Source of the DNA: a virus
IMG/VR virus record: IMGVR_UViG_3300033143_001468
Location: 1 to 31,502 of that record
Direction: 5' to 3' (one strand)
DNA: 31,502 nt
Within the stretch, counting starts at the first letter, position 1. Each line of letters begins with the position of its first letter. Both the position numbers and the translations under genes were made by a program. Positions 1 to 15,859 of the stretch are shown here, one piece after another. Below the pieces are notes generated by a model, which saw nothing but the letters and a program-made list of their open reading frames with translations, had not been told where the DNA came from and did no database searches.

Positions 1-39
1 CAAATTGACGGTCAGGCATATACCATTGTTAATAACTAA
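1..39 (+). CDS. 3' end of an upstream gene (partial)
   Basis: The first 13 codons are open and end in TAA at 37-39, giving the C-terminal residues QIDGQAYTIVNN. The remaining ~60 bases before the next gene look like a normal intergenic leader, so this is probably the end of a gene that begins outside the window. Too little protein is present to suggest a function. The frame choice rests only on the stop codon and the spacing, so this is tentative. Confidence 0.4.
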   Translation, partial: QIDGQAYTIVNN

Positions 40-65
40 GGTTTAAGGTTAGGATTGAATAAAGG

Positions 66-71
66 TATAAT
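66..71 (+). promoter_or_regulatory. Possible -10 element (TATAAT) upstream of the DUF932-like gene
   Basis: A perfect TATAAT lies about 30 bases before the GTG start at 101, which would put a transcript start near 78 and leave a short leader carrying the AAAGGA ribosome site. No good -35 box is present at 16-18 bp upstream (the best is TTAAGG-like), so it may be activator-dependent or a chance match. Confidence 0.25.
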
Positions 72-100
72 ATTAATTAACACTAACAAAGGAATAAAAC

Positions 101-916
101 GTGGATACAATTAAACAAAATAAAAAAGAGCAGTTTTTCGACCTATTAAACCAAAATCAAAGTCTTGAAACGTCAGACCGATATAAGTTGATCAATACAG
201 GTCAAGTCTTAGGTCAATTACAGAAACAAGGCTTTGAGGTAAAAAACTTTAATGCTAGTAACGTTCGCAAAAAGACTAAAGAAGGATTTCAGGCCCATAT
301 GGTCGAGTTATATCATCCTAAAATGCAACTAACTAACCATACGGACTTAGAACCTAGACTATTATTATGGAACTCATACGATAAATCATGTAGTTTACAG
401 ATCTCGTTAGGTTTATATCGCTTTGTATGTAGTAACGGTCTTGTTATAGGTGACGATTATGCAAAATTTAACATGAAACATTTAGGCGATATTGAAACAC
501 AACTTAACAACTTTTTACCGCAACTTAATACTTCATTAAAAAAAGCTAATAATCGTATTGAACTATTTAAATCTACGCATTTAACGGTATCTCAAAGCCT
601 ACAATTAACTCATAATATAGTTGAGAACACTGTATTTAAAAATAGATACAATGTAGTTAAGGATAATTTAATTCAATATAGATTTAATGCATCCAGACGT
701 ATAGAGGACGACAAAACAGATTTATTCACAACCTTAAACCGTATACAAGAAAACATTATTCAAGGGGGGATCACTTATAAAACTATATCAGATAAAGGTA
801 TAAAAAGGCAGTCCACTAAAAAAGTTACGTCTATATTTACTAGTAAAAAGTTTAATAATGAAGTCTGGCTACAATCGGGTCTATTATTAGATAAAATCTT
901 AAAAGAGGCGGTATAA
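101..916 (+). CDS. DUF932-like phage/plasmid protein
   Basis: A 271-aa protein starting at GTG, preceded by an AAAGGA ribosome-binding site. Around residues 103-118 it has the signature of DUF932 proteins, LYRFVCSNGLVIGD (family pattern: aromatic-R-x-V/I-C-S-N-G-L-V). This lies between an N-terminal part rich in charged residues and a helical C-terminal half. DUF932 proteins are common on phages and plasmids and tend to sit among replication or early genes; their biochemical role is not established. It is first of three tightly packed genes (1-bp gaps to the next two) that probably share one transcript ending at the terminator near 2050. The family call is by motif recognition; no enzymatic role can be assigned. 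Confidence 0.7.
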   Translation: MDTIKQNKKEQFFDLLNQNQSLETSDRYKLINTGQVLGQLQKQGFEVKNFNASNVRKKTKEGFQAHMVELYHPKMQLTNHTDLEPRLLLWNSYDKSCSLQISLGLYRFVCSNGLVIGDDYAKFNMKHLGDIETQLNNFLPQLNTSLKKANNRIELFKSTHLTVSQSLQLTHNIVENTVFKNRYNVVKDNLIQYRFNASRRIEDDKTDLFTTLNRIQENIIQGGITYKTISDKGIKRQSTKKVTSIFTSKKFNNEVWLQSGLLLDKILKEAV

Positions 917-917
917 T

Positions 918-1166
918 ATGTCTAAAGTAACTAAAATAAACGAACCAATTATAATGAGTATTAGCGTTAAATGTAGTGATCAATTCTGGTGTCAAGTTAA
1001 AGGTCAAGGTTATGATTTTGAATACTGTGATTATGTACCTGACTTTTTTCCAGATGAGCATTACGGTGACTATGTTATGTTAGATATCGACGTTAAAACC
1101 GGTAAAATAATCAATTGGAGAGTACCAACTAAAACAGACTTAAATAAACTTAAAAAGGAGGCATGA
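918..1166 (+). CDS. Conserved-operon hypothetical protein, 82 aa
   Basis: Begins at ATG 918 one base after the DUF932-like stop, with GAGGCGG as ribosome site, and stops one base before the Cys-motif gene. The protein is acidic in the middle (DYVPDFFPDEHYGDYVMLDIDV) with a Lys-rich C-terminus, two Cys and no membrane segment. It resembles no family I can name. Its position between two recognisable genes, in the same operon, makes it a real gene and possibly a partner of one of them. Confidence 0.7.
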   Translation: MSKVTKINEPIIMSISVKCSDQFWCQVKGQGYDFEYCDYVPDFFPDEHYGDYVMLDIDVKTGKIINWRVPTKTDLNKLKKEA

Positions 1167-1167
1167 T

Positions 1168-2010
1168 ATGTCTAAACTATTAAATCATATTGATAAACTA
1201 AAGTTAGGTATCATTGACGATAACTTAAAAAAAGAACTAAAACAAGTAAACTTATTAACAGAGGACAAAACTAATGCTAAACTAAGTAAAAACATCGGCG
1301 TTAGTGATTATAAGACCTATATAATGTATTTAAGTCCAGCTGATATTAGTGGCGTTAATATATGCCCTTGGTCTAGTAAAGGCTGTAAAAAGTCTTGTTT
1401 AAATACTGCAGGCCGAGGCAGGTTTAGTAATGTTCAGAATGCCAGACTTCGTAAAACGTTATATTTTTTAAAGCTTAAAGGGGATTTTTTATTTCAATTG
1501 GATACTCAAATATCTAAACTTAAAAAGAAGCACAAAAAGTTAGCTATAAGACTTAATGGAACATCAGACCTTAATTGGAGTACTATTATAAAAAGACATC
1601 CCGAAGTACAATTTTACGATTATACTAAGTCCGTATCTAGAGTACTTAATAACAGGCTAGACAACTATGATTTAACCTTTAGTCTAAGTGAATCTAATTA
1701 TAATGATACTATGAGACTGCTATATACAGGCAATCGCGTAGCCATGGTCTTTGATGAGATACCTAAGTACTATATGGGTTATCCTGTAGTTAATGGTGAT
1801 AAACACGATCTTAGATTTTTAGATAAACATGGTGTGATTATAGGCCTAACAGCTAAGGGCGACGCTAAAAAAGACTTGTCAGGATTCGTTATTAGAGACG
1901 TTTTACCACAAGGTTCTAGAGTTATATCAAAGGAATATACGCCTATACCTATAATGCCACAAAAATTTATAATAAATATAATCGATGTAAAAAAATTAAG
2001 CGCGGGTTAA
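1168..2010 (+). CDS. Phage Cys-motif protein, DUF7227/gp88-like
   Basis: A 280-aa protein with ribosome site AAGGAGG before ATG 1168. It carries C66-x6-C73-x3-C77 within PADISGVNICPWSSKGC, followed by a conserved-looking LNTAGRG, then AIRLNGTSDLNW (about 126-137), FYDYTKS (about 150-156) and DLRFLDKHGVIIGLTAKG (about 212-229). This is the pattern I associate with a widespread phage family of unknown function (DUF7227, related to mycobacteriophage gp88). The three-Cys cluster suggests a metal or Fe-S site, but the spacing is not the canonical radical-SAM CX3CX2C, so a radical-SAM role is only a guess. Last gene of the operon; an intrinsic terminator follows 29 bases after the stop. Confidence 0.7.
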   Translation: MSKLLNHIDKLKLGIIDDNLKKELKQVNLLTEDKTNAKLSKNIGVSDYKTYIMYLSPADISGVNICPWSSKGCKKSCLNTAGRGRFSNVQNARLRKTLYFLKLKGDFLFQLDTQISKLKKKHKKLAIRLNGTSDLNWSTIIKRHPEVQFYDYTKSVSRVLNNRLDNYDLTFSLSESNYNDTMRLLYTGNRVAMVFDEIPKYYMGYPVVNGDKHDLRFLDKHGVIIGLTAKGDAKKDLSGFVIRDVLPQGSRVISKEYTPIPIMPQKFIINIIDVKKLSAG

Positions 2011-2038
2011 CTACCCCTTAATATTACTGCTCACATAG

Positions 2039-2061
2039 AGGCCCCTTAGAGGGCCTTTTTT
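2039..2061 (+). terminator. Intrinsic terminator after the DUF932/gp88-like operon
   Basis: AGGCCC (2039-2044), a 6-base loop and GGGCCT (2051-2056) form a perfect 6-bp GC-rich stem, followed directly by five more T (2057-2061). It lies shortly after the stop codon at 2010 and should end the leftmost transcript. Confidence 0.85.
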
Positions 2062-2066
2062 AATGT

Positions 2067-2140
2067 CTATACCTTACTATACCTTTAATATTAGAGTGCT
2101 ATACAGGCCCATATGAGTGCTTCTATGCGTATGGCTATAC
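2067..2140 (+). repeat. Four CTATAC direct repeats
   Basis: CTATAC occurs at 2067-2072, 2077-2082, 2099-2104 and 2135-2140. The first two are a near-perfect 10-bp tandem (CTATACCTTA / CTATACCTTT). The copies lie just after the terminator in AT-rich DNA, which fits protein-binding iterons, but they are short. Confidence 0.45.
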
Positions 2141-2230
2141 TATAGGCTTATAACAGGCTTATATGGTGTATATAATGTTAATAGCTAATAGAATTATAAA
2201 TTAAATCACAATTAAATCTAGGCCTGTATA
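2100..2230. repeat. 10-bp inverted repeat TATACAGGCC / GGCCTGTATA
   Basis: Perfect arms at 2100-2109 and 2221-2230, about 111 bases apart. A related sequence AACAGGCTTATATGG lies between them (2152-2166) and matches ACAGGCCCATATGAG near the left arm. The spacing is too long for a simple hairpin and suggests paired protein-binding sites. Confidence 0.5.
2148..2176 (+). promoter_or_regulatory. Possible sigma70-type promoter for the small-gene cluster
   Basis: TTATAA (2148-2153, four of six consensus bases), a 17-bp spacer and a perfect TATAAT (2171-2176). It would start a transcript near 2183 with a leader of about 350 bases before the first small gene at 2540. The AT-rich context makes chance matches likely. 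Confidence 0.35.
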
Positions 2231-2429
2231 AATTATCATCACCAAATCAAGCTGTATAAGTCTTGTACACTCTGTGTTTCAATATGAGACGTCCTCCTTC
2301 CACTTTCCGGGATTTTAAGAAAAGTTTGGCCTTTTAACGACTTGAAAATTGGGGGAAATGGGAACATTTGAGGGGAATCGGACATTAAATTCAATTAAAA
2401 GTGAAATAAAGCTCAAGTTTTTGTTTAAA

Positions 2430-2471
2430 ACGTCCGAGGAGATCTATATGAGGACAATATCTTGGACGTAA
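2430..2471 (+). promoter_or_regulatory. Leader hairpin enclosing a seven-residue ORF
   Basis: ACGTCCGAG (2430-2438) can pair with CTTGGACGT (2461-2469), giving nine pairs including one G-U. The enclosed loop carries a strong ribosome site (GAGGAG, 2436-2441) and ATG 2448, which reads MRTISWT then TAA (2469-2471). Translation of this mini-ORF would run into the 3' arm of the stem, so it could act as a leader peptide or translational switch for the genes that follow. No function is shown; it may also be fortuitous. Confidence 0.35.
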
Positions 2472-2539
2472 ATTATGATATGTTCTCAAATGGCGATATT
2501 ATAGACAATAGTGACAATTTTTGTCAAAAGGAGGTAAGA

Positions 2540-2746
2540 ATGAAAGAATTTATAACATTAATACTATCGCTGGGATTGGTTATATTTATAATATATGGGC
2601 TGCATTCAATAATGAAAGCTAGTATAAAATCTATACATATAGAAAGGTCCTGTGCAATAAAATGCCTAGAATCATCGTTTTCTGAATATAGATATATAGC
2701 TGGGCGTTGTTTTTGTGAGAACCCAAATAAAGTTAAGGAGTATTAA
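2540..2746 (+). CDS. Small membrane-anchored Cys-rich protein, 68 aa
   Basis: Start chosen at ATG 2540 because a perfect AAAGGAGGT precedes it; the longer reading from TTG 2462 has no ribosome site. Residues ~4-23 form one hydrophobic segment (ITLILSLGLVIFIIYGL), followed by a soluble tail with paired Cys: CAIKC and RCFC. This fits an inner-membrane protein with a periplasmic domain held by disulfides. It is first in a run of small overlapping genes. Small proteins of this build in phages are sometimes superinfection-exclusion or host-envelope factors, but that is inference only. Confidence 0.7.
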   Translation: MKEFITLILSLGLVIFIIYGLHSIMKASIKSIHIERSCAIKCLESSFSEYRYIAGRCFCENPNKVKEY

Positions 2747-2747
2747 A

Positions 2748-3089
2748 ATGAAAGTAGGAGATAAAATAGAAATATTAAAAGATGGTGCAGCGTGTACTGG
2801 CGAAAGTAAAGGTACAATACTTACAGTAATTGAGGTTAATATTGGTGGGGGATGGTTTTATACAGATGTATCTGCAAATAGTCCGGCAAAGCGATGGATG
2901 TTTGATATATCTGACGAAGGTGAACATTATAAGGTAGTTGAAACCAAAGAGGAAAAGGTAGCCCCGCCTGTAAAGGGAGAAGTTGTTGGAATAACTATAG
3001 ATTCTGGTAATCTACTAAAATATGTTGAACTTCATGACTATTTGTCGGGATATGGATATAAACTTAAAATAGTAAAAAAGGGGGAATAA
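2748..3089 (+). CDS. Hypothetical protein, 113 aa, KOW/SH3-like N-terminus
   Basis: ATG 2748 follows TAAGGAG and lies one base after the previous stop; an in-frame upstream extension lies inside the previous gene. The N-terminus (MKVGDKIEILKDGAACTGESKGTILTV is the general region) alternates strands and glycines like a small SH3/KOW-type barrel, and the C-terminal third is a separate mixed segment after a Lys/Glu/Pro linker (about 65-75). Cytoplasmic by composition. No named family recognised. Confidence 0.65.
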   Translation: MKVGDKIEILKDGAACTGESKGTILTVIEVNIGGGWFYTDVSANSPAKRWMFDISDEGEHYKVVETKEEKVAPPVKGEVVGITIDSGNLLKYVELHDYLSGYGYKLKIVKKGE

Positions 3090-3256
3090 TGGACGTAATC
3101 ATAGGTACAAAATATAGAATGTCATATTGGCCGGATAGCTGGTGGATTGAAGTATTATTACTTAGTCCAGATACAGAGTATGTATTTTATATAGATAATC
3201 GCGGTAAGTATGGATGTTTTAATATGTTATTAGAATTTGAAGAATTGGAGGAATAA
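3089..3256 (+). CDS. Hypothetical protein, 55 aa
   Basis: Starts at ATG 3089 sharing its A with the previous TAA (TAATG) and ends at 3254-3256, where the next ATG overlaps the stop by one base. GGGGGA upstream serves as ribosome site. The peptide is aromatic-rich (MSYWPDSWWIEVLLLS near residues 11-26) and acidic at its C-terminus (EFEELEE). The tight coupling on both sides supports it as a real gene. Function unknown. Confidence 0.65.
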   Translation: MDVIIGTKYRMSYWPDSWWIEVLLLSPDTEYVFYIDNRGKYGCFNMLLEFEELEE

Positions 3257-3564
3257 TGAAAATCAAACCAAAAGTATATAGAGATGCAGCAAAACTGTTA
3301 TATGAAAAAGAAACTTGTGGAGCTTGGTCTGGATATAGTGCAGATTATTCTTGTACAGCTATAGACGGTATTATTGGCGGCGATTTATACAAACATATAT
3401 ACGCAGAGCATTTTAAGCCGAGAAATAAATATGAAGGAGATATTTGGTTTGGTGACCGCTATGCCCCAAAGGGTAGACTTAAGTCAGCCAAAGTACGAGA
3501 CCGCATGAGATCAGAGCGTTATATAGCATTATTACTAATGGCAGAGATAGCGGAGGATTTATGA
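3256..3564 (+). CDS. Hypothetical protein, 102 aa
   Basis: ATG 3256 follows TTGGAGGA and overlaps the preceding stop by one base. The protein has an N-terminal helix (VYRDAAKLLYEKE), a Gly/Tyr/Cys-rich middle with CGAWSGYSADYSC, and a basic helical C-terminus (RYIALLLMAEIAEDL). Similar layouts (A/L-rich helix, short Cys-containing loop, C-terminal LLMAxIAE helix) occur in small uncharacterised phage proteins, but I cannot name the family. It overlaps the lipoprotein gene by four bases. Confidence 0.65.
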   Translation: MKIKPKVYRDAAKLLYEKETCGAWSGYSADYSCTAIDGIIGGDLYKHIYAEHFKPRNKYEGDIWFGDRYAPKGRLKSAKVRDRMRSERYIALLLMAEIAEDL

Positions 3565-3758
3565 AGTATATTATAATATTGTTATGTCTAGGGATGTTTG
3601 GTTGTAACGGTAACAGATTAAATATCGATAAAAGTTCTATTTTTAATACAATATGTCTAGACAATCACGTATATTACGATAGTGGATATCGGCTAGCTAT
3701 AAAACTAAATGATGACGGTAAACCTATAAAATGTAAGGAGATTGTAAATGTTTATTAA
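3561..3758 (+). CDS. Small probable lipoprotein, 65 aa
   Basis: ATG 3561 overlaps the previous stop as ATGA and has GGAGG eight bases upstream. The N-terminus is a classical short export signal, MKYIIILLCLGMFGC, with a possible lipobox ending at Cys15 (MFG|C; the -3 Met and -2 Phe are not ideal). The mature part of ~50 residues has two more Cys (ICLDN, IKCKE) that could form a disulfide. Likely an envelope protein; candidates include a lysis outer-membrane component or a superinfection-exclusion lipoprotein. It is not next to the lysis genes, which weakens the first idea. Confidence 0.6.
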   Translation: MKYIIILLCLGMFGCNGNRLNIDKSSIFNTICLDNHVYYDSGYRLAIKLNDDGKPIKCKEIVNVY

Positions 3759-3990
3759 ACACATAGAAGTAACAGATACAGCGTTTGAAGTCTATAAGAT
3801 TTATTTAGAGGGAGACCATTATACTGTAGTTGGAGCCTGGGTTAATATTATATCAATGAGACCATTCTGCATATCAGAAGATACAATATATATACCAGAG
3901 GACAGAATACATGACTGGATTTTAACTAAAGCAGAGGAATATCAGGAACTTAAGACTTGTAGCTGGTATCCACTAAGGGGGAATATATGA
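3748..3990 (+). CDS. Hypothetical protein, 80 aa
   Basis: ATG 3748 overlaps the lipoprotein gene by 11 bases and follows TAAGGAG at good spacing. Soluble, acidic, with several aromatic residues and two Cys. The repeated strand-like segments (FEVYKIYLEGDHYTVVGAWV) suggest a small beta-rich fold. No family recognised; support is the ribosome site and the overlap pattern of the cluster. Confidence 0.6.
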   Translation: MFIKHIEVTDTAFEVYKIYLEGDHYTVVGAWVNIISMRPFCISEDTIYIPEDRIHDWILTKAEEYQELKTCSWYPLRGNI

Positions 3991-4172
3991 TTTATATACT
4001 ACTATCAACGTTCGTTACATGGGGCCCTACAGGAGATACCCTAGTTTTTAACGATGTAAAGCCATATAAAAGCTTAAAGACCTGTGTTATCAGTAAGATG
4101 AGGCTTCGGCAGGACCTTAAGTTAAAATATAAGAATGTCAATGTGAAGTGTATACCGGCGAGGTTAAGATGA
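3987..4172 (+). CDS. Small secreted-type protein, 61 aa
   Basis: ATG 3987 overlaps the previous stop by four bases and follows AAGGGGGA. A short hydrophobic N-terminus (MIYILLSTFVTWG) is followed by a domain with FNDVKPYKSLKTC and VNVKCIPARLR. The pattern of one Cys in a helix after a 'phe-x-ser-leu' segment and a second in a C-terminal V-x-C-I/V-P strand is typical of small exported one-disulfide proteins seen in phages and bacteria. Function unknown. Confidence 0.55.
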   Translation: MIYILLSTFVTWGPTGDTLVFNDVKPYKSLKTCVISKMRLRQDLKLKYKNVNVKCIPARLR

Positions 4173-4369
4173 CAGAAGTGTGGTTGTTAGAAACTAAATA
4201 TAAAGATGGAGAGAGTTATGAAGAGATATTCATACATTTATCAGGAACAGATGTTTGGATCACAGATACCGGAGCGTTGGACGAGCAATTGGAGAATATT
4301 AGCTTTACTAGATTGTTTTGGAGTAGACAGGGAACTGAGCACTTATTTACTAAACTCTGTAATATGTAA
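4169..4369 (+). CDS. Hypothetical protein, 66 aa
   Basis: I place the start at ATG 4169, which overlaps the previous stop (ATGA) and follows GAGGT; a GTG at 4148 would add seven residues but has no ribosome site. The protein starts MTEVWLLETKYKDGESYEEI, is acidic and has no membrane segment. A +1-frame reading of the same region (4206-4415) lacks a ribosome site and was discarded. Function unknown. Confidence 0.55.
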   Translation: MTEVWLLETKYKDGESYEEIFIHLSGTDVWITDTGALDEQLENISFTRLFWSRQGTEHLFTKLCNM

Positions 4370-4389
4370 TTTAAAAAAAAGGAGTTATT

Positions 4390-4782
4390 ATGAATTTAAT
4401 CATAGCTGGCAGTAGAAATATAGATACATTAAGTAAATATTGGTTTAGAGATACTCTACTTAATTTTAAAATTGATTGTAGAAAACTTGCAGATCCTATA
4501 CAAATATATGAAATTATTAGTGGGGGAGCTAAAGGTGTAGATTCTTGCGGAGAGAAGTTTGCTAGCAGTTACTTAATTCCTAAAAAAATATTTCCTGCTA
4601 ATTGGAAGAATCATGGCAAAGCTGCCGGACCTATTAGGAATAAACAGATGGCCGAATATGCTGACGCTTTATTGTTAATATGGGATGGAGAGAGTAGAGG
4701 CTCTGCTAGTATGAAAAGAGAAATGGAAAAATTAAATAAACCTGTATATGAAGTAATACTTAAAACGAATAAGACAGGATAA
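4390..4782 (+). CDS. SLOG-superfamily (DUF2493-like) nucleotide-binding protein
   Basis: A 130-aa protein after a strong AAAGGAG site. It has the ordered SLOG/DUF2493 motifs of a Rossmann-like fold: IIAGSRN (4-10), IISGGAKGVDS (42-52), NHGKAAGPIRNKQMAEYAD (74-92) and LLIWDGESRGSASM (95-108). SLOG domains bind nucleotides or nucleotide-derived ligands such as cytokinin precursors or ADP-ribose-type signals; a standalone phage copy has no fixed role. It closes the rightward small-gene cluster and its 3' end overlaps the convergent minus-strand gene by 23 bases. A role in sensing or removing a defence signal is possible but is inference only. Confidence 0.8.
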   Translation: MNLIIAGSRNIDTLSKYWFRDTLLNFKIDCRKLADPIQIYEIISGGAKGVDSCGEKFASSYLIPKKIFPANWKNHGKAAGPIRNKQMAEYADALLLIWDGESRGSASMKREMEKLNKPVYEVILKTNKTG

Positions 4783-5146
4783 CACCAATCTCTTTATCGG
4801 TTCTCGCATAAACGCCCATATAAGCCCCTAGAAGGACTCTCTTAGAAAAGCTAACCCCGTATATAGGTTGACATCGTAGAACGTCGCTACAGCCGCCTGA
4901 GAGGCTCACAATGGTATTTTTTTGGGTAGCCCGGACTATCTTTGTGGACTTCTCTGTACTTTTATCGATTTCCTTAATGATTTCAACGATCTTAGTTCCA
5001 TCGGGTTTAGTGATGATTCTATCAATAGTTTTGTACTTGGTGACTTCTTTAACTACAACTTGTTTCTCGGAGTAGCCCATACGGCCAAGACCATAAGCAC
5101 CAAGAATAATAACAAGTAATAATCCATACTTAACCTTCTTTGTCAT
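4760..5146 (-). CDS. Membrane-anchored phage protein, 128 aa (possible spanin-like)
   Basis: ATG at 5146 follows AAGGAG and overlaps the 47-aa gene by 17 bases. One N-terminal membrane helix (residues ~6-24, KYGLLLVIILGAYGLGRMGY) is followed by a charged stalk with VVVKEVTKYKTIDRIITKPD, then TEKSTKIVRATQ, then a C-terminal region with two Cys and beta-like strands ending in VILSYSF. The 'valine-rich stalk then KPDGTK' layout recurs in unnamed anchored proteins of aquatic phages. Being downstream of the endolysin and holin genes, an inner-membrane spanin-like role is possible, but no outer-membrane partner lies next to it. The last gene of the minus-strand operon. Confidence 0.65.
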   Translation of the reverse strand: MTKKVKYGLLLVIILGAYGLGRMGYSEKQVVVKEVTKYKTIDRIITKPDGTKIVEIIKEIDKSTEKSTKIVRATQKNTIVSLSGGCSDVLRCQPIYGVSFSKRVLLGAYMGVYARTDKEIGVILSYSF

Positions 5147-5273
5147 CGGATTTCTCCTTTTCTTTAGCCCATTCTTCGGCCAATAGTTGCCACCATAGTT
5201 TTTTCTTAGGTCCCATTTTGTTCTGTGACCGCCACTTCTTAATCCAACCTTTTCTTTTAGTCTTCGCGGGCAT
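5130..5273 (-). CDS. Small basic protein, 47 aa
   Basis: Reads from ATG at 5273 to TAA at 5130-5132, overlapping the nuclease gene by 17 bases at its start and the membrane-protein gene by 17 bases at its end. It is Lys-rich with five Trp (W10, W14, W27, W28, W36) and a charged EKEKSDDKEG tail. The symmetrical overlaps and the ribosome site for the next gene inside it (AAGGAGAAATCCG) fit a translationally coupled operon. No family recognised; a nucleic-acid contact would fit the composition but is only a guess. Confidence 0.6.
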   Translation of the reverse strand: MPAKTKRKGWIKKWRSQNKMGPKKKLWWQLLAEEWAKEKEKSDDKEG

Positions 5274-5655
5274 CTTTATCCTCAATAGGGTTCATAATAT
5301 TATCAGGGTTGTCATCTCCCAATAGCTTCATAAATTTGGTAAAAGGAATAGCGATGTAAACTTCATGACCATTTTTCTTAAATACCACTAAAGGAGTGTG
5401 ACCTTTGGCATTCTTTTTACATTGACTAATAGCTTCCCAAATATTTAATTTCTCTACGTTTTTACATTCTACACTATACGGATAGACCTTTCGTGCGGCG
5501 GGGCTTAGTTGAACATCCTCACCAGACTCACCCATAGTTGTGGACCTTATATCATCTTGCTCAAGGTTAGGTGCGAATCGTAGGAATACATCTCTAACGA
5601 ACTGTTGTAGTCTACGCCCTTTTGCCTTGGCAGATCGGGTAGTTAGCCGCGCCAT
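5257..5655 (-). CDS. PD-(D/E)XK-fold endonuclease (resolvase-like)
   Basis: A 132-aa protein beginning at ATG 5655, which shares a base with the previous stop (TAATG). The nuclease core is visible: GESGEDVQLSPAARK with D47, followed by YSVECKN with E63 and K65, that is D-x15-E-x-K. The N-terminus (SAKAKGRRLQQFVRDVFL) is a basic helix typical of these phage enzymes. Such small PD-(D/E)XK proteins are often annotated as Holliday-junction-resolvase-like and lie near terminase genes, where they may trim branched DNA before packaging. Location between lysis genes and the terminase operon agrees. Exact substrate unknown. Confidence 0.75.
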   Translation of the reverse strand: MARLTTRSAKAKGRRLQQFVRDVFLRFAPNLEQDDIRSTTMGESGEDVQLSPAARKVYPYSVECKNVEKLNIWEAISQCKKNAKGHTPLVVFKKNGHEVYIAIPFTKFMKLLGDDNPDNIMNPIEDKDARED

Positions 5656-5819
5656 TATTTAGTCCTCTCCCACTTACCATTGCTATATCTGTATGTACCA
5701 GGGACAAAATCTCCCGTTTTCTTTACTATCAAAATCATCATACCTTCTAGCTCGTACTGCTGTAATCCTAGTAATTTCTTAGCCTTACGGGCCGCATCTA
5801 AACTAATTATATTATTCAC
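5655..5819 (-). CDS. Hypothetical protein, 54 aa
   Basis: Starts at GTG 5819 after AAAAGGA on the minus strand and ends with TAA at 5655-5657, overlapping the nuclease start by one base. The peptide has an N-terminal helix (ISLDAARKAKKLLGLQQYEL) and a beta-like C-terminus (TYRYSNGKWERTK). Its start codon overlaps the -35 region of the rightward promoter on the other strand. Supported by the ribosome site and coupling; function unknown. Confidence 0.55.
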   Translation of the reverse strand: MNNIISLDAARKAKKLLGLQQYELEGMMILIVKKTGDFVPGTYRYSNGKWERTK

Positions 5820-5848
5820 TTGACATCCTTTTCAAAGTTTGGTATAAT
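5820..5848 (+). promoter_or_regulatory. Perfect-consensus sigma70-type promoter, antisense to the lysis genes
   Basis: TTGACA (5820-5825), a 17-bp spacer and TATAAT (5843-5848): twelve of twelve consensus bases with ideal spacing. Transcription would start near 5855 and run rightward through the complement of the holin and endolysin genes toward the small terminase gene at 6628. It is the strongest promoter I see. It may be the late promoter of the morphogenesis operon, an antisense regulator of lysis, or both. Confidence 0.85.
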
Positions 5849-5924
5849 GGTATCTAGACGAGAACACAATTGGAGGCTTCCATTATTAGGTTCCCCCCAG
5901 GAACTACAGTATTTAAGGATAACT

Positions 5925-5972
5925 ATGTTCAAAATCATTTCTTTAATACCTTATCTATCATTTTGTCTCTAA
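5925..5972 (+). CDS. Putative 15-aa hydrophobic leader peptide
   Basis: ATG 5925 opens a 15-codon ORF, MFKIISLIPYLSFCL, with AAGGAT five bases upstream. It lies ~70 bases downstream of the consensus promoter and antisense to the 3' end of the holin gene. The 13 bases around its ribosome site (TAAGGATAACTAT, 5914-5926) recur exactly before the gene at 12336, which argues that it is translated. It could be a leader peptide or a tiny membrane peptide. Coding capacity this short can arise by chance. Confidence 0.35.
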   Translation: MFKIISLIPYLSFCL

Positions 5973-6165
5973 AATAGTCTTTACCTAGATTTAACAGCCT
6001 CTCTCCGACATTAGTTGCCATAAATGCTATAACTACCTGACTATTATATTGTACCCATTCGGAGCCTGTCATTAGCTCTGCCAATAACAAGCCAAGGCTA
6101 ACACAAAGAAAGATTATTACTACAGTAAATTTACGAAAACCAACTAACCATTTGAAATTACTCAT
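5935..6165 (-). CDS. Holin-like small membrane protein
   Basis: A 76-aa protein whose ATG (6165) overlaps the endolysin stop as ATGA. It has a first membrane helix at about residues 13-32 (FTVVIIFLCVSLGLLLAELM), a polar turn with TGSEWVQYNS, a second, weaker hydrophobic segment (VVIAFMATNVG, about 44-54), and a basic C-terminal tail (KMIDKVLKK). Two helices, a charged tail and tight pairing with an amidase are typical of class II-type holins, which form the membrane lesion that releases or activates endolysin. The exact holin family is not certain. Confidence 0.65.
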   Translation of the reverse strand: MSNFKWLVGFRKFTVVIIFLCVSLGLLLAELMTGSEWVQYNSQVVIAFMATNVGERLLNLGKDYFRDKMIDKVLKK

Positions 6166-6578
6166 TTAAACAATACCTCGGCTCTAAACTTATTCATATC
6201 CAAATTGGGACATGTCTTATTGGGATTTAGTTCGTAATGCCCTAGTAGGTAGTCCACACTAACCTCATAATTACTCATTAATGCTCTAACTAGCTGTTTT
6301 AACGACCGAAACTGGTCCTCGCCGGGATTGTTCCTTCCGACCCAACATATACCGATAGAGTCTGAGTTCCATCCTGCAGCATGAGCGCCAATTTCTTCAA
6401 TAGGCCTTCCACGTTCAACATCACCATTTCTTCTAACAATGTAATGATATCCACAACTTACGCCACTTGGAGACAGCCATCCCCGTTTTCTATGCCAGTC
6501 ATTTATGTCCTCAAACCCAAAGTCTAAGCTGTCGTCTGAATCTGATACATGTATTACAATTCTCTTTATTTTTCGCAT
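6162..6578 (-). CDS. Endolysin: N-acetylmuramoyl-L-alanine amidase (Amidase_2, T7-lysozyme type)
   Basis: A 138-aa single-domain enzyme cutting the amide bond between muramic acid and the stem peptide. Zinc ligands of T7 lysozyme are all present: H10 (IVIHVSDS), H114 (LLGHYELNP) and C123 (KTCPN), as are the catalytic-site Tyr (Y44 in CGYHYIVRRNG) and Lys (K121). HAAGWNSDSIGICWVG (66-81) is the conserved core. No signal peptide, so it depends on the holin encoded next. The start lacks a clear Shine-Dalgarno and lies by an 8-bp inverted repeat shared with the divergent terminase gene. Confidence 0.92.
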   Translation of the reverse strand: MRKIKRIVIHVSDSDDSLDFGFEDINDWHRKRGWLSPSGVSCGYHYIVRRNGDVERGRPIEEIGAHAAGWNSDSIGICWVGRNNPGEDQFRSLKQLVRALMSNYEVSVDYLLGHYELNPNKTCPNLDMNKFRAEVLFK

Positions 6579-6583
6579 ACTTG

Positions 6584-6621
6584 TATAGAACGACTGTTCC
6601 TGGGGTAGCTAATGTTCTATA
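6584..6621. repeat. 8-bp inverted repeat between divergent endolysin and terminase genes
   Basis: TATAGAAC (6584-6591) and GTTCTATA (6614-6621) are perfect inverted arms in the 49-base gap between the endolysin start (6578) and the small terminase start (6628). Neither gene has an obvious ribosome site, so this element could be an operator or an RNA structure affecting initiation of both. Confidence 0.5.
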
Positions 6622-6627
6622 GTTTAT

Positions 6628-7035
6628 ATGGGAAGATCTAATAAATATGACATGTTACAACGTGAGACCGTTATTATGGACCGCCTGAGTAAGGGACACC
6701 CAGTTTCCGAAATATGTCGAGATCTTGCAAAAGCCTATAATTGTAGTGAATCTGCTATAAGAAAACAATATGAAAATATGATGAAAGAAATGGCCCATCG
6801 TAATCAAGTAGCAATGGAGTCCACAAGACAAGAGATTGACCTTCGTTTGGACTTTGCATACCGTAAGGCCGTTGAAGCAGATAATATTAAAAATATGATT
6901 GACGCCTCAAAAGAGAAAGCCCGACTACATGGGTTATATGAGAAGAAAGAAGATGTCGCAAAGATCCCAGAGGTTATTGAATTTGTGGAAGAGGATTTTA
7001 GTGGCTTAAAAGTTGTCGGTGACAAGAAAAAATAA
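6628..7035 (+). CDS. terS: Terminase small subunit
   Basis: A 135-aa protein with an N-terminal helix-turn-helix region (about 10-47: LQRETVIMDRLSKGHPVSEI, then ESAIRKQYENM), a central helical oligomerisation segment (TRQEIDLRLDFAYRKAVEAD) and an acidic, then Lys-rich tail. This layout and its position directly before the large subunit mark it as the DNA-recognition subunit of the packaging motor. No clear Shine-Dalgarno precedes ATG 6628. First gene of the rightward morphogenesis operon; probably transcribed from the 5820 promoter or a local one. Confidence 0.8.
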   Translation: MGRSNKYDMLQRETVIMDRLSKGHPVSEICRDLAKAYNCSESAIRKQYENMMKEMAHRNQVAMESTRQEIDLRLDFAYRKAVEADNIKNMIDASKEKARLHGLYEKKEDVAKIPEVIEFVEEDFSGLKVVGDKKK

Positions 7036-7042
7036 TTAAAAT

Positions 7043-8248
7043 ATGAGAATACCCTTATCTAAAACCCAAAGACAGTTTGTAACTGCTCCACAGGACTTTG
7101 TTTTGTATGGCGGAGGGTTAGGTAGTGGAAAAACTTGGGCTGGTGCTGCCTGGGTCACAACGATGATTCTAAAGTACCCCGGAGTAAATGGAGTAATAAC
7201 CGCTAACTCATACAAGCAGCTTAATCGCGCAACATTAGCAACGCTGTTTGAAATATGGGACTTGTGGGGAATACCCTTCACTTATGGTGAGAAACGCGGA
7301 GAGATCAAAGTCTTTGGTACAACAATCTATACCGTATCTATGGACAACTATAACGATCTTCGTGGATTTGAAGTTGGTTGGGCTTGGAGTGATGAGTGTG
7401 CGTTTTATAAGAAAGAAGCCTTTGACGTTTTAATTGGTCGTATAAGAAATAAAAAAGGACCGTGTCAATGGAAGGGAACCACAACTCCAAACGGATATAA
7501 CTGGCTCTATGAAACTTTTGTAGAGAATGCCGATGAGAATACTAAATTAATAAGATCGTCAACTTTAGATAACGCAGCGAACCTATCAGATTCATATATA
7601 AGAAACCTTAGAAAGAATTATGATAGCAAGTTAGCACAGCAAGAGATAGATGGTGAGTTCGTAAACCTTAGCAGCGGGAAAATATATTACCAATTCGATA
7701 GAGACAAGCACATTGATACTGTACCAGATAGCCCCGATTTTTTACTTAATGTGGGTCTTGATTTTAATGTCAATCCTTTGTGTGGGACTTTCATATATGC
7801 TAAAGGGCTTAAACTCTATGTCAAACAAGAAATGCGCCTTAAAAATAGTAACACCTTCGAGGGAGCAAAAGAAATAATCAAACGATACCCATATCAAGCA
7901 TTACAAATAGTGCCGGATGAAACTGGAAACAGAAGAAAGAGTAGCACGATAAAAATAAAAGGTGCCTATCAAACAGATCATGAGATTCTACGGAGAGCCA
8001 ATTTACAGTTAGCCCAATTTAGAAACCCCGGCGTTAAAGATAGATACAACAACTTAAACAGATTATTTGAACAAGGTAGAATTATAATAGATCCAAGTTG
8101 TAAATACCTTATTAAAGATTTAGAACAAATGACTTACGATAACAATGACGATATGCTTGGACATCTTGGGGACACTCTAGGATACGTAGCATGGCACATT
8201 CACCCGATGAAACCGCCTCCGCGTCGAGCAACCGTTAGATACCAGTAG
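7043..8248 (+). CDS. terL: Terminase large subunit
   Basis: A 401-aa packaging ATPase-nuclease. Walker A is GGGLGSGKT (23-31), Walker B with the catalytic Glu is VGWAWSDE (111-118), and GTTTPNGYNW (about 144-153) fits the coupling motif. The C-terminal RNase H-like nuclease begins at LNVGLDFNVNP (about 235-245), continues with VPDETGNRRKSS and ends with GHLGDTLGYVAW carrying the last metal-binding Asp. It cuts concatemers and drives DNA into the prohead through the portal. Length is at the short end of the family. ATG 7043 has no strong ribosome site, so it may be coupled to terS, which ends eight bases before. Confidence 0.93.
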   Translation: MRIPLSKTQRQFVTAPQDFVLYGGGLGSGKTWAGAAWVTTMILKYPGVNGVITANSYKQLNRATLATLFEIWDLWGIPFTYGEKRGEIKVFGTTIYTVSMDNYNDLRGFEVGWAWSDECAFYKKEAFDVLIGRIRNKKGPCQWKGTTTPNGYNWLYETFVENADENTKLIRSSTLDNAANLSDSYIRNLRKNYDSKLAQQEIDGEFVNLSSGKIYYQFDRDKHIDTVPDSPDFLLNVGLDFNVNPLCGTFIYAKGLKLYVKQEMRLKNSNTFEGAKEIIKRYPYQALQIVPDETGNRRKSSTIKIKGAYQTDHEILRRANLQLAQFRNPGVKDRYNNLNRLFEQGRIIIDPSCKYLIKDLEQMTYDNNDDMLGHLGDTLGYVAWHIHPMKPPPRRATVRYQ

Positions 8249-8255
8249 GAAATAT

Positions 8256-9797
8256 ATGCCAACTAAAAAACCTTTACGCGAGTTAATACCAGATATACTA
8301 GTCCACATACAGAATCACCAGGACTATTTACAATTCAACCAAAATTTATATGAGATGTGGCAGGGCCAAATAAAAGAGTTTGTTAAAGACTCCCTAAAAG
8401 AAGAAATAATCTCGAAGGCTGCATACAGCAGAGCAATCAAAAGAATACCATCAATAAACGTAATTCAAAAGACAACACAAAAACTTTCTAAAGTATACAC
8501 TAATCCACCAACTAGACTCACAGACAATACCGTTGACAAAGACATAATGGACTCCATTGAAAAACATGGCAATTTAAATCAAGCTTTAGATGTTGGCAAT
8601 AATGTAGCTAATCTCCACAGAGGGTTTTACATTGAGCCATTTATCGAAGAGAAGAAAATAAAGTTTAGAACCTTAGCATACCAACAGTTCTTGCCGTTTA
8701 GTGACGACACTATTAACCCTTTGAATATGACAGTCCTAATAAAACTTATGGGTAAAGATAAAAAGGTTACTCAACAACAGACGTATGACGAACAGGGTAG
8801 AAAGTTAGAGGGAATTGAAGATCAAATAAGAGAAGTGGACCTTTATAGTTTAACCTCCGATGGTGAATTTATGATTATAGATTCTCAAGGTGACGTTAGG
8901 CTTGATAAGATGGAAGAAATATTTGGGAGCAATTCTACTGTAAACAAGTTCGGAGTTATCCCAGGTAGATACTTTAACACATCTGCGTTTGAATTAATAC
9001 CGTTTTTAAACCAGGCTGGTTACGACATATCAATACTAATACCTAAGCTATTAACAGATTTAAACTTCGCAGCACAATATATGAGTCACTCTATTATATG
9101 GACCAAGAATGCAAATCTAGGGGGACAGTCAATTAACCCGGACGCTATTATAGATCTTGGGGACCAAAAAGAAGGTGGTGGCGATCCTGACATGGGGGTT
9201 ATAGACCCGAAGGTTGATATTGAAAAGATCTTGATGTTAGTTGAATTTGAATTAAGCGCATACTTTAGTTCTGTTGGGATTAAAACCTCAACCCAAGGTA
9301 CCATGATGCCGGGTAGAGAAGCTAGTGGATTTGCTAAAGCTATGGATGAGGGCGACGCTACTCAAGAAAGACAAGCACAGGTTGAACAGTTTAGAGAGTA
9401 TGAACATAACTTTTGGAAGATGTTAGCTAAGGTACAGAACGTATGGGCCGGAGAGAATAAACTAAGTGAGAACCGCAAGTTCAGTCCACAGTTCTCGGAT
9501 ACATTTAGTGTTGTGTTCTCAGAGATGAAAGTATTAAAGTCTGCTAAACAAAAACTAGAAGAAATAAAATTAAGTCAAGACCAGGGATTAATGTCCGAGA
9601 GACAAGCTTTAAGATTCCTATACCCTGACTTCACAGAAAAACAATTAGACGAATGGCAAGCTGAATTAGAAGTCCAAAAGAAAAAGCAAATGGAAGAGAT
9701 GTTAGCTATGGCAGCACCAGTGCCAGGCGATGATCCAGATAAAAAGAAGTCTAGCGATCCTGCAGAGGCCCAGCGTAAAGAAACGTTAGGTAAATAA
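8256..9797 (+). CDS. Portal protein
   Basis: A 513-aa protein directly downstream of terL, the usual place for the portal, with AGGAA before ATG 8256. Recognisable portal features are the N-terminal helical part with YSRAIKRIPSINVIQKTTQKL (within 60-85), the central beta-rich stem and clip region, a long helix around TDLNFAAQYMSHSIIWTKN, SSVGIKTSTQGTMMPGREAS (about 340-360), and a C-terminal charged helix with a Pro/Asp/Lys tail. It forms the dodecameric ring at one capsid vertex for DNA passage and connector docking. Its stop overlaps the next ATG by one base. Confidence 0.85.
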   Translation: MPTKKPLRELIPDILVHIQNHQDYLQFNQNLYEMWQGQIKEFVKDSLKEEIISKAAYSRAIKRIPSINVIQKTTQKLSKVYTNPPTRLTDNTVDKDIMDSIEKHGNLNQALDVGNNVANLHRGFYIEPFIEEKKIKFRTLAYQQFLPFSDDTINPLNMTVLIKLMGKDKKVTQQQTYDEQGRKLEGIEDQIREVDLYSLTSDGEFMIIDSQGDVRLDKMEEIFGSNSTVNKFGVIPGRYFNTSAFELIPFLNQAGYDISILIPKLLTDLNFAAQYMSHSIIWTKNANLGGQSINPDAIIDLGDQKEGGGDPDMGVIDPKVDIEKILMLVEFELSAYFSSVGIKTSTQGTMMPGREASGFAKAMDEGDATQERQAQVEQFREYEHNFWKMLAKVQNVWAGENKLSENRKFSPQFSDTFSVVFSEMKVLKSAKQKLEEIKLSQDQGLMSERQALRFLYPDFTEKQLDEWQAELEVQKKKQMEEMLAMAAPVPGDDPDKKKSSDPAEAQRKETLGK

Positions 9798-10282
9798 TGG
9801 CTGAAGCTCAGAATACGTACACAGCTTTTGTGGACCCCCGCTTCACATTTAAACAGAGACAACAAATAGGTCGAGACATAATAAAGTTTATAGTTAAAAG
9901 AGCTGGCAATAATAAAGGGATAGCGGGAGTTAGATTTCACAACTACTCAAAAAGTTATGCCGATAGTGCAGAGTTTAAAGCCGCAGGTAAGAGTAAGAAT
10001 AACCCCAATATAAAACTACGTGGTGATATGTTAAATCAATTGAAAATATTAGATGCATCATTAGCCGGAAGAGTGGTTGTGGGTTTTACATCTGGGACTA
10101 AATCAAACGATAAGTCTGTGTGGATGAGAGAAAAGGGATTCAACTTCCTGGGATTAAGTTCCGATGAGTTAACCTTCATTCTTGCAAGTTACGCAGTTCC
10201 GACCGTAAGTGACAGAGATTTAATACAACAAATTATAGCCGTTAGGCAACCTGAAGAGGATGAAGAAGACATTGACAATTAG
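9797..10282 (+). CDS. Virion morphogenesis / head-neck protein
   Basis: A 161-aa protein whose ATG 9797 shares a base with the portal stop. The central pattern FHNYSKSYADSAEFKAAGKS followed by IKLRGDMLNQLKIL is one I associate with small structural proteins encoded after phage portals, often described as minor capsid or neck proteins. It has an acidic tail (EEDEEDID). It overlaps the next gene by 23 bases, indicating translational coupling. Exact role (minor head protein or connector component) not resolved. Confidence 0.6.
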   Translation: MAEAQNTYTAFVDPRFTFKQRQQIGRDIIKFIVKRAGNNKGIAGVRFHNYSKSYADSAEFKAAGKSKNNPNIKLRGDMLNQLKILDASLAGRVVVGFTSGTKSNDKSVWMREKGFNFLGLSSDELTFILASYAVPTVSDRDLIQQIIAVRQPEEDEEDIDN

Positions 10283-10757
10283 TATTAAACAATTAAAAAA
10301 AGAATTACTTAAGATAGCAAATGAAGCAGTTAAAAGAGACACCATGAGAGAAGCTATAGAAGTAATCGAGAAAGACATAAAGAAAAGAACTGTAGAAGGA
10401 AAAAGCTCACGCGGGGCTAACTTACCCGAACTAGCAGAGTCCACAAAGAGAATAAGAAGACATCTAGGAGCAACCGGCAAACTAACCGGACCAACTGTCC
10501 CCGGCCTATCAAACGTAACTAGAAGCGGCAAAATGATAAACTCCGTTACAAGCAAAGCCTTTAGGGGTAAAGCTATTATAAAATTTAGAAGTGCAGCACA
10601 AGCTAAGAAGATGCAAAAGTTATTAAATGTAACAAGTAAACAATATGGTACCAGAACCTTTAAGTGGTTTGTTGCTAATAAGAAAAATAGAAAAGATAGT
10701 TTAGATATTATACAAGTCGCAGTAGATAAAGCTGTGCGAAGATTTAACAACAAATAG
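10260..10757 (+). CDS. Head-tail / virion morphogenesis protein (HK97 gp10-like layout)
   Basis: A 165-aa very basic protein starting at ATG 10260 inside the end of the previous gene. An N-terminal helix (IKQLKKELLKIANEAVKRD) is followed by GKSSRGANLPELAESTKRIR, TRSGKMINSVTSKAF and QYGTRTFKWFVANKK. The sequence of 'G-x-P-L-x-x-S-T' then 'TGxM-x-S' then 'YGT-R-F' is what HK97-gp10-like and Mu virion-morphogenesis proteins show. Such proteins act at the head-tail joint. Family assignment is by pattern only. Confidence 0.6.
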   Translation: MKKTLTISIKQLKKELLKIANEAVKRDTMREAIEVIEKDIKKRTVEGKSSRGANLPELAESTKRIRRHLGATGKLTGPTVPGLSNVTRSGKMINSVTSKAFRGKAIIKFRSAAQAKKMQKLLNVTSKQYGTRTFKWFVANKKNRKDSLDIIQVAVDKAVRRFNNK

Positions 10758-10778
10758 CCTAGTAGGCAGGAGAATAAA

Positions 10779-11384
10779 ATGAGTATAGAAAACAATGACA
10801 GTGTTATTGATAAGGTTGAACCTGTAGTAACGGATGATGCTAAAAAAGATGAATATGTAGCAAGAAAAGCCTATGAAGATGTATCCAAAGATATGCATAA
10901 GTATAAATCACAGGTTCGAGATGCTCAAGCTGCAATGAATGAGGCAGAAGCCAAACTCAAAGCAATCGAGGATCAAAAACTAAAAGATAATCAACAATGG
11001 GAAGAACTATATAATCAACAATGTGCGAAAAGTGAGAATGCGGAAAAGATGAGATCACAGGATAAACAATTGTATTTAAGATCTGTGAAACTTAATGCTT
11101 TAAAATCAGAACTTGGTGGTAAAGTAAAAGAGGATTATCTTTCGTTCGCTAATCTAGACGATATTGACATTAACGAGGATGGCACACTAAGCTCTGATAG
11201 TGTTAGAACCGTAGCCAATAGTTTTAGACAGGCACACCCGCAGTTAATCCCTTCAGAGGGAAACCCAGACATCACTAATAGTGCAACCAAAACGTCTTTT
11301 TCTAACGATGTAGATCCAGAAGTGGCTAAAATGTCGTTTGAAGAAAAGGCTAAATTATTGAATGAACTTAAGAAACAAAATTAA
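10779..11384 (+). CDS. Capsid scaffolding protein
   Basis: A 201-aa acidic protein after CAGGAG. Residues ~25-110 are a long, almost continuous coiled-coil of Lys, Glu, Gln and Ala (for example SQVRDAQAAMNEAEAKLKAI), followed by a less ordered part and a C-terminal helix SFEEKAKLLNELKKQN that would contact the capsid protein. This composition and position immediately before the major capsid gene are standard for scaffold proteins that guide prohead assembly and are removed before packaging. No protease motif is seen in it. Confidence 0.8.
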   Translation: MSIENNDSVIDKVEPVVTDDAKKDEYVARKAYEDVSKDMHKYKSQVRDAQAAMNEAEAKLKAIEDQKLKDNQQWEELYNQQCAKSENAEKMRSQDKQLYLRSVKLNALKSELGGKVKEDYLSFANLDDIDINEDGTLSSDSVRTVANSFRQAHPQLIPSEGNPDITNSATKTSFSNDVDPEVAKMSFEEKAKLLNELKKQN

Positions 11385-11397
11385 ATAGGAGAATAAA

Positions 11398-12273
11398 ATG
11401 GCTATTATTAATAGTGCAACTACTTCCGCAGCCGTAGAAAGAGAAGTCATACTGTCGATTGTGCAGGACGAACTTTTAAAAGCTGCTAAACTAAGACCTA
11501 CCGTATCTGATTACAGTTCAAGTGTAAGTAAAGGCGATAAGTCTGTCGAGATTCCAAAATTCACTGCCAGTTTCAGTGGACCTACTGCCCAAAACGTTGA
11601 TGGTACAACTGCCACAGCTTTACAGGCATACACTCTTGGAACTGACGCGATTGCTTTAAATAAGCACGTTAACTTACCTTACAGAATTACTGATAGAGCA
11701 TCGACTCAATCTGCGGTAAATCTTGAAGCTGAAGCTGCGAAATCTGCTGGACAACATATGGGTATCTACATTGATGACCAAATCATTGCTCAACTAAGAT
11801 TAGCATCTGCATCTACACCTGATCACATTCGTGCATTAGATGATGGTGGAGCTACTTCTGGCGTTGGTGCTGCGATCACTCTTGAAACTATTGCTGTTGC
11901 TAGACAACTTTTAAAAGAGCAAAATGTTCCTCAAGACGGTCTATGGTTGGTGATTCCGCCTGAGCAAGAAAAGAATATTATCTTAATTGATAACTTTAGA
12001 AATGCCGATAAATACGGTTCTAGAGAAGCTTTACTTGAAGGTGAAATTGGTCGCATATATGGTTTCAGAGTAATGGTCCACAATGGACTTGCTGCTAATG
12101 AAGCTTTTGCTTACAGTCCTAAGGCTGTGGGATTTGCGATGCAACAAGAGGTTAAATTTGAATCTCAAAGAGCCCCGGTTGATATTTTAGCAACTGATTA
12201 CTCTTTCTCATTATTGATGGGTGATGCTGTATTAAGTGACGGTAAATTACAAGTTTACATGCTTGGTGCATAA
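11398..12273 (+). CDS. Major capsid protein, HK97 fold
   Basis: A 291-aa protein after TAGGAG, with no obvious long N-terminal delta domain, consistent with the separate scaffold gene upstream. Segments typical of P22/T7-like and related HK97-fold capsid proteins are visible: the N-arm VEREVILSIVQDELLKAAKL, the E-loop-like DKSVEIPKF region, DRASTQSAVNLEAEAAKSAG (spine helix), IDDQIIAQL, then LKEQNVPQDGLWLVIPPEQE and GRIYGFRVMVHNGL in the A-domain. The strong ribosome site and the intrinsic terminator right after it suit a protein needed in hundreds of copies. Confidence 0.88.
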   Translation: MAIINSATTSAAVEREVILSIVQDELLKAAKLRPTVSDYSSSVSKGDKSVEIPKFTASFSGPTAQNVDGTTATALQAYTLGTDAIALNKHVNLPYRITDRASTQSAVNLEAEAAKSAGQHMGIYIDDQIIAQLRLASASTPDHIRALDDGGATSGVGAAITLETIAVARQLLKEQNVPQDGLWLVIPPEQEKNIILIDNFRNADKYGSREALLEGEIGRIYGFRVMVHNGLAANEAFAYSPKAVGFAMQQEVKFESQRAPVDILATDYSFSLLMGDAVLSDGKLQVYMLGA

Positions 12274-12287
12274 TATTGAATTTATAT

Positions 12288-12322
12288 AGGGATAAAGGGG
12301 CTTCGGCCTCTCCCTCTTTTTT
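12288..12322 (+). terminator. Intrinsic terminator with UUCG loop after the capsid gene
   Basis: GGGGC-TTCG-GCCTC (12297-12310) forms a stable tetraloop hairpin that can be extended by AGGGA (12288-12292) pairing with TCCCT (12311-12315), with TAAA bulged out. Six T follow (12317-12322). It lies inside the morphogenesis operon, so it probably reduces rather than stops expression of the genes beyond the capsid gene. Confidence 0.85.
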
Positions 12323-12335
12323 ATAAGGATAACTA

Positions 12336-12518
12336 TTGGAATTAGCTAATCAACCGCCAGCATCATTAGAAGCCAAAACAAAGGCAGATCTGCGCATATT
12401 AATGCTTCTCAACAATAGAAAACATAACAAACGATTTCATTACTTCGATTTCAGCTTTGCAAAAGGCAAATGGCATTGTTGGTTTGAAATATCTGAAACG
12501 GATAGGGTAACTAAATAA
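12336..12518 (+). CDS. Hypothetical protein, 60 aa (TTG start)
   Basis: Start taken at TTG 12336, five bases after TAAGGAT; the same 13-base block (TAAGGATAACTAT) precedes the tiny ORF at 5925. The protein starts MELANQPPASLEAKTKADLR and has a basic, aromatic second half (RFHYFDFSFAKGKWHCWFE). It is the first gene beyond the capsid terminator. No family recognised; given its place it may be a minor head component or assembly factor. Confidence 0.55.
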   Translation: MELANQPPASLEAKTKADLRILMLLNNRKHNKRFHYFDFSFAKGKWHCWFEISETDRVTK

Positions 12519-12583
12519 TGAAACGAACAAAATTAAATATTGCACAAGTCGTTTCTAAAGATACCGGAGGTATCAATGGCTAA
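12518..12583 (+). CDS. Possible 21-aa coupling peptide
   Basis: ATG 12518 overlaps the stop of the 60-aa gene (TAATG) and a 21-codon ORF runs to TAA at 12581-12583, past the ATG (12576) of the next gene. No ribosome site of its own is seen, so translation would depend on coupling; ribosomes ending here would be placed at the start of the next gene. This could be chance. Confidence 0.22.
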   Translation: MKRTKLNIAQVVSKDTGGING

Positions 12584-12998
12584 ACCTAAAGGTGGAAGAA
12601 AAGATAAAGACGATGCTGCGTATATAGTTAATACTGGAGACTCTGGTACTGACCGTAGAACAAACGATAGCATAACACACACAAAACTAGATGCAATTAT
12701 AGATGGTGTTGGGGGAAACCCTACAGGCGGCGATACTATTCAAGATAATGATACCGCAACAACAAGTCCAGTAGATGTGCCAGCAGTAGCCGGTGGAGTC
12801 ATCACTGACATTTTAATAGAAAATACAAACTCTTCCGCTGCGACTTTACAAGTTAGCTTAGACGGGGGAACCAATTATTTCGACATGGACAAGAAGTCCA
12901 CACTAGACGGACCCATCAATGCCGATATAACACAAATAAAAATTAAAGCCTCAAGCGGCACGTGCGATTATCAATACATAATAAATAGAAGGACTTAA
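12576..12998 (+). CDS. Probable head decoration or fibre-associated structural protein, 140 aa
   Basis: Start set at ATG 12576 behind CCGGAGGT. After a Lys/Asp-rich N-terminus (MAKPKGGRKDKDDAA) the protein becomes beta-rich and Thr/Asn/Asp-heavy: DNDTATTSPVDVPAVAGGVI, IENTNSSAATLQVSLDGGTN, ITQIKIKASSGTCDYQYI. This looks like a small immunoglobulin- or jelly-roll-type structural domain such as those decorating heads or joining fibres. It directly precedes the 949-aa fibre-like gene, so it may be its anchor or a capsid decoration protein. Function inferred from composition and location. Confidence 0.55.
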   Translation: MAKPKGGRKDKDDAAYIVNTGDSGTDRRTNDSITHTKLDAIIDGVGGNPTGGDTIQDNDTATTSPVDVPAVAGGVITDILIENTNSSAATLQVSLDGGTNYFDMDKKSTLDGPINADITQIKIKASSGTCDYQYIINRRT

Positions 12999-13000
12999 TA

Positions 13001-15850: not shown

Positions 15851-15859
15851 GGAGAAGTA

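Follow-up and report, generated by a model that had tools for sequence, protein, structure and literature searches.

A very probable consensus sigma70 promoter directed against the lysis genes of an uncultivated virus

Antisense control of late functions is known from phages: in lambda, the antisense promoter paQ, which needs the activator CII, opposes the antiterminator gene Q (PMC2327240). In bacteria, bidirectional promoters usually share a symmetric -10 element, with divergent starts about 18 bp apart (PMC10268837). We analyzed a window consisting of all 31,502 bases of IMG/VR record IMGVR_UViG_3300033143_001468, an uncultivated virus, in which a sigma70 promoter very probably faces genes of the kind opposed by paQ-like promoters, here holin and endolysin (Table 1). 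No named phage matched the window at the DNA level, and its TerL protein had remote matches only among named phages (about 32% at best) and likewise among plasmids. A search of GTDB genomes with a TerL alignment returned no match.

Table 1. Positions and strands of the features around the rightward promoter site, with the basis of each assignment
Feature	Position	Strand	Basis and remarks
54-aa ORF, GTG start, adjoining the promoter	5655-5819	-	in a slot with variable cargo in related phages
11/12 leftward promoter-like site	5806-5835	-	-35 overlaps the rightward -35 region; overlooked in the original prediction
Consensus sigma70 promoter TTGACA-17-TATAAT, TGG extended -10	5820-5848	+	sequence, 12/12; predicted start about 5855
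Six-pair hairpin GGTTCC/GGAACT in the predicted leader	5889-5905	+	sequence
Shine-Dalgarno-like AAGGA and 15-codon ORF MFKIISLIPYLSFCL	5914-5972	+	not conserved, within chance
Holin-like small membrane protein	5935-6165	-	assigned by hydrophobicity and location without a profile match; the predicted RNA is antisense to it
Endolysin, Amidase_2 (PF01510)	6162-6578	-	E 6.8e-19; phrog_822; antisense to the predicted RNA
Inverted repeat TATAGAAC-22-GTTCTATA	6584-6591 and 6614-6621		in the endolysin-terS gap
Putative terS and TerL genes	6628-8248	+	TerL by sequence and profile matches; terS, which had no profile match, from its synteny and position

The rightward site and its expectation by chance

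The original prediction of a perfect rightward consensus was borne out on reading the sequence, as were its direction against the minus-strand holin and endolysin genes and the position of its -35 element directly next to the GTG of a minus-strand gene (5819-5817, the start of the 54-aa ORF). An extended -10 element had been overlooked, TGG being the three bases before the -10. Together, the two consensus hexamers, a spacer in the 16-18 bp range and the TGn motif are what is expected of an extended -10 promoter read by sigma70, whose recognition of the site is assumed. The weight-matrix scores and ORF maps used in the analysis were produced mechanically.

Sites of this quality are rare by chance. 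Exact matches to TTGACA-N15-19-TATAAT number two in the window, compared with 0.11 expected, and one has the 17-bp spacer, for which dinucleotide shuffles of the window gave an expectation of 0.01. When TGn was required as well, the site was found once in the window and in none of 300 shuffles. This rarity makes it very probable that 5820-5848 is a real rightward sigma70 promoter directed against the lysis genes. Looser promoter-like sites (at least 9 of 12 positions, within 1-16000) were at shuffle level, with 57 found and 59 expected. The exact 29-mer of the promoter had no other occurrence in viral_contigs, in a search that may leave out very near records.

An inert match, in which the hexamers are a chance product of the AT-rich DNA surrounding the start and Shine-Dalgarno sequence of the 54-aa ORF and are either unused or give a product without effect, would be in keeping with several observations. 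The site overlies the ribosome site of another gene (the AAAGGA of the 54-aa ORF sits within the promoter spacer), it was picked from the whole window, it is not conserved in relatives that cover this slot, and its recognition by sigma70 is an assumption. Nevertheless, the low expectation at exactly 17 bp and the absence of the TGn version from the shuffles speak against such a match, as does the enrichment of the same promoter class in related records over a reversed-pattern control (see below), and we consider it quite improbable.

A second perfect sigma70 site, also overlooked originally, is present at 2527-2498 on the minus strand, with an 18-bp spacer. The palindrome TGACAATTTTTGTCA spans its -35, and a rightward gene follows closely. 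Transcription from 2498-2527 would enter a non-coding stretch of 450 bp and, beyond it, run antisense to a GP88-family gene. The stretch (2011-2461, about 450 bp without a convincing gene) could be a control region or an origin, and contains a terminator-like hairpin at 2037-2058, after the GP88-family gene.

The predicted leader and the overlapping leftward site

The hairpin that had been proposed for the RNA is indeed present, but its folding is within the range of chance: the 76-nt leader folds no better than its shuffles (z 0.58), and a trimmed 33-nt piece holding the hairpin gave a z of -1.7. As a terminator the hairpin was ruled out, the T-run after it being missing. No conserved RNA families or tRNAs were found. 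We also compared the stretch 5815-5940 with the promoter cassettes of relatives and with the rest of the window and detected nothing beyond chance, the strongest matches being a 15-mer in L081 (E 0.09) and the 13-mer at 12324 that was already known. This 13-base identity between the ribosome site and that of the gene at 12336 is exact, TAAGGATAACTAT at 5914-5926 recurring at 12324-12336, but unremarkable in a window with 49 repeated 13-mers (19 in shuffles).

The 15-codon ORF extends from ATG 5925 to TAA 5972 and had been described as antisense to the holin gene, which holds for 5935-5972, but not for its first 10 bases, which lie past the holin stop. The window has 4 ATG ORFs of 8-40 codons that follow a Shine-Dalgarno sequence, whereas shuffles have 14. 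Given these counts and how common repeated 13-mers are, neither the mini-ORF nor the identity of its ribosome site is an argument for function. Near the same position, the relative L002 has four codons only (ATG TAT CCT TAT TAA), and no convincing match to the peptide was obtained among the fetched related loci. With the ORF broken in this relative, no homologue in the fetched loci and such ORFs scarcer than in shuffles, the suggestion of a tiny membrane-peptide gene is not supported.

On the other side of the promoter, profile, sequence and related-locus searches found no relatives of the 54-aa ORF. The leftward site, which has an 18-bp spacer and no TGn, may be incidental, since its predicted start falls inside this ORF. 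Alternatively, the two sites could form a back-to-back divergent pair, the 12/12 site supplying the late operon rightward and the 11/12 site the resolvase-spanin genes leftward. Both -35 elements do lie within 16 bp (TTGACATCCTTTTCAA), and divergent promoters are common in bacteria (PMC10268837). The pair at 5806-5848 further resembles bidirectional bacterial promoters in that promoter elements overlap on both strands; however, it shares the -35 region and not a symmetric -10, and its predicted starts are about 56 bp apart rather than the usual 18 (PMC10268837). As the leftward start inside the 54-aa ORF, the missing TGn and the 18-bp spacer also count against a divergent pair, we regard it as very unlikely.

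Related loci, promoter class and the endolysin-terS gap

Relatives were collected from IMG/VR by searches with TerL, endolysin, capsid and resolvase queries. This gave about 20 distinct loci that have a common layout as far as each contig reaches: genes for a spanin-like and a resolvase-like protein, then a variable slot and the genes for a small membrane protein and an amidase endolysin, all leftward, followed by rightward terminase and portal genes. L002 was the sole close relative found with these and the 54-aa queries (84% TerL), the other loci being at about 50-58% TerL. The holin-resolvase slot carries differing cargo among the relatives; by reading of the translations, some of it is HNH-, GIY-YIG endonuclease- or ClpP-like, while the rest consists of small unknown ORFs. 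In L003, L004 and L007, the endolysin-side slot before the resolvase-like gene is filled by a protein of about 180 aa whose translation appears ClpP-like.

A comparable rightward promoter was absent from the slot in all relatives that cover it (about 50-58% TerL), where the best rightward sigma70 weight score was 9.8, compared with 15.5 in the window. Judged on relatives of about 55% TerL identity, the promoter in the slot is apparently lineage-specific. By the original prediction, loss of both promoter and ORF in close relatives of the same gene order would speak against it. This is half borne out by L002, which keeps the gene order: the ORF is lost there, and the contig ends 42 bp past the holin stop, short of the promoter position, with a readable part that differs in sequence.

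The promoter itself belongs to a type that recurs in the group. Across 11 records, window included, TTGACA-17-TATAAT occurred 24 times when up to one mismatch was allowed, compared with 5 times for the reversed pattern, and 11 of the 24 had TGn where 1.5 were expected (p 7e-8). In 20 related records, the TGn pattern was found eight times and its control not once. This enrichment likewise indicates that the window promoter is probably real. By its sequence, it is a typical member of the group's class with 17-bp spacer and TGn, in an unusual location: the sigma70 promoters of the relatives (G004, G010, G007) have the same hexamers, spacing and TGn and are intergenic in several cases, but those that could be placed lie mostly left of the spanin gene or ahead of short rightward ORFs in regions that look early, whereas that of the window lies in the holin-resolvase slot and faces the lysis genes. 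A search of the relatives for a single-subunit RNA polymerase, as an alternative to the host polymerase, gave no match, but the control genomes gave none either, so this result does not establish its absence.

Several class members in G004 and G010, located to the left of the lysis block, have a short rightward ORF beginning 8-24 nt downstream. The window site could therefore be what remains of a small-gene cassette, or such a cassette in its minimal form, in which the promoter drove or still drives a short rightward ORF and the 15-codon ORF is a leftover or a tiny membrane peptide. The well-spaced AAGGA before the mini-ORF and the variable cargo of the slot would agree with such an origin. 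Yet neither 5815-5940 nor the peptide is similar to any fetched cassette, shuffles contain more such ORFs than the window does, L002 has just its four codons near the same place, and the distance from the -10 to the ATG is 76 nt. On balance, a cassette remnant seems rather unlikely.

The original prediction also offered 5820-5848 as the late promoter. This is weakened by the endolysin-terS gap, a divergent stretch of 49 bp (6579-6627), in which several relatives have sigma70-like sites of their own: rightward sites are present in the gaps of L009, L024, L029, L030, L032 and L034, and leftward ones precede the endolysin gene in L005, L023 and L034. The window promoter lies outside this gap, beyond the lysis genes and 780 nt upstream of terS. 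Several relatives also have inverted repeats in the gap, with about 18-25 bp between the arms and often beside a TATA box, although the letters of the arms differ. Overall these repeats exceed shuffles (Stouffer z 4.8), albeit not in each locus, and part of the signal consists of facing Shine-Dalgarno sequences. The gap repeat is a candidate for a divergent late promoter or operator, or for a packaging feature. The window terS has no clear Shine-Dalgarno sequence, so that its mRNA would be almost leaderless if transcription started at a point fixed by the TATA box.

Elsewhere in the window, a terminator-like hairpin, AGGGGCTTCGGCCTCT, within 12275-12336 separates the capsid gene from the conserved small gene at 12336. 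Ahead of the hairpin lies TTGAATTTATATAGGG, similar to the TATA motif seen in the endolysin-terS gaps.

Possible roles of the promoter and comparison with lambda paQ

As we infer from sequence, host RNA polymerase would start near 5855 at the extended -10 promoter, and the RNA would run antisense across the holin and endolysin genes and then into the terminase-portal operon, where terS and TerL are the first annotatable sense genes. Such read-through into terS is suggested by the lack of a convincing terminator between 5855 and 6628: a weak site at 6312-6325 is the only one there that resembles a terminator, and overall such sites are no more frequent than expected by chance. The likeliest use of the promoter would be additional rightward transcription, any damping of the lysis genes through collision or antisense pairing being a by-product. 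We favor this reading of an extra rightward host promoter tentatively. Such a promoter may be superfluous, given the sigma70-like sites in the gaps of some relatives, and class members in relatives mostly precede a nearby rightward ORF, unlike here, where terS is 780 nt away. In addition, the relatives by which its restriction to this lineage was judged have about 55% TerL identity.

A dedicated antisense timer, in which the RNA or the opposing polymerases restrain holin and endolysin until late infection, had been put forward in the original prediction. The orientation and strength of the promoter would suit this role, as would the absence of a convincing terminator ahead of the endolysin gene and the precedent of lambda paQ and Q (PMC2327240). 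On the other hand, relatives covering the slot (about 55% TerL identity) have no comparable promoter there and do not conserve the leader, no conserved RNA family was found, the leader folds no better than chance, and the predicted continuation of the RNA into terS would be superfluous in a dedicated timer. A dedicated timer is therefore unlikely, and the broader proposal of an undescribed regulatory device finds no backing in conservation or RNA features. In a variant to which we give little credence, a constitutive, host-read promoter would delay lysis by transcriptional interference, serving this lineage as a timer and supplying the late operon as well.

For the present, the value of the locus lies in a well-supported promoter and in a pointer to a more widespread control region between endolysin and terS in this phage group. 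If active, the promoter would clearly exemplify a strong phage promoter that opposes lysis genes, and would make it easy to test whether lysis time is set by transcriptional interference. With lambda paQ it has in common that the promoter opposes a gene controlling late functions and lysis (PMC2327240). It differs in that the window site has a full consensus and is directed against holin and endolysin themselves; by analogy, the resemblance to paQ is one of logic and not of membership.
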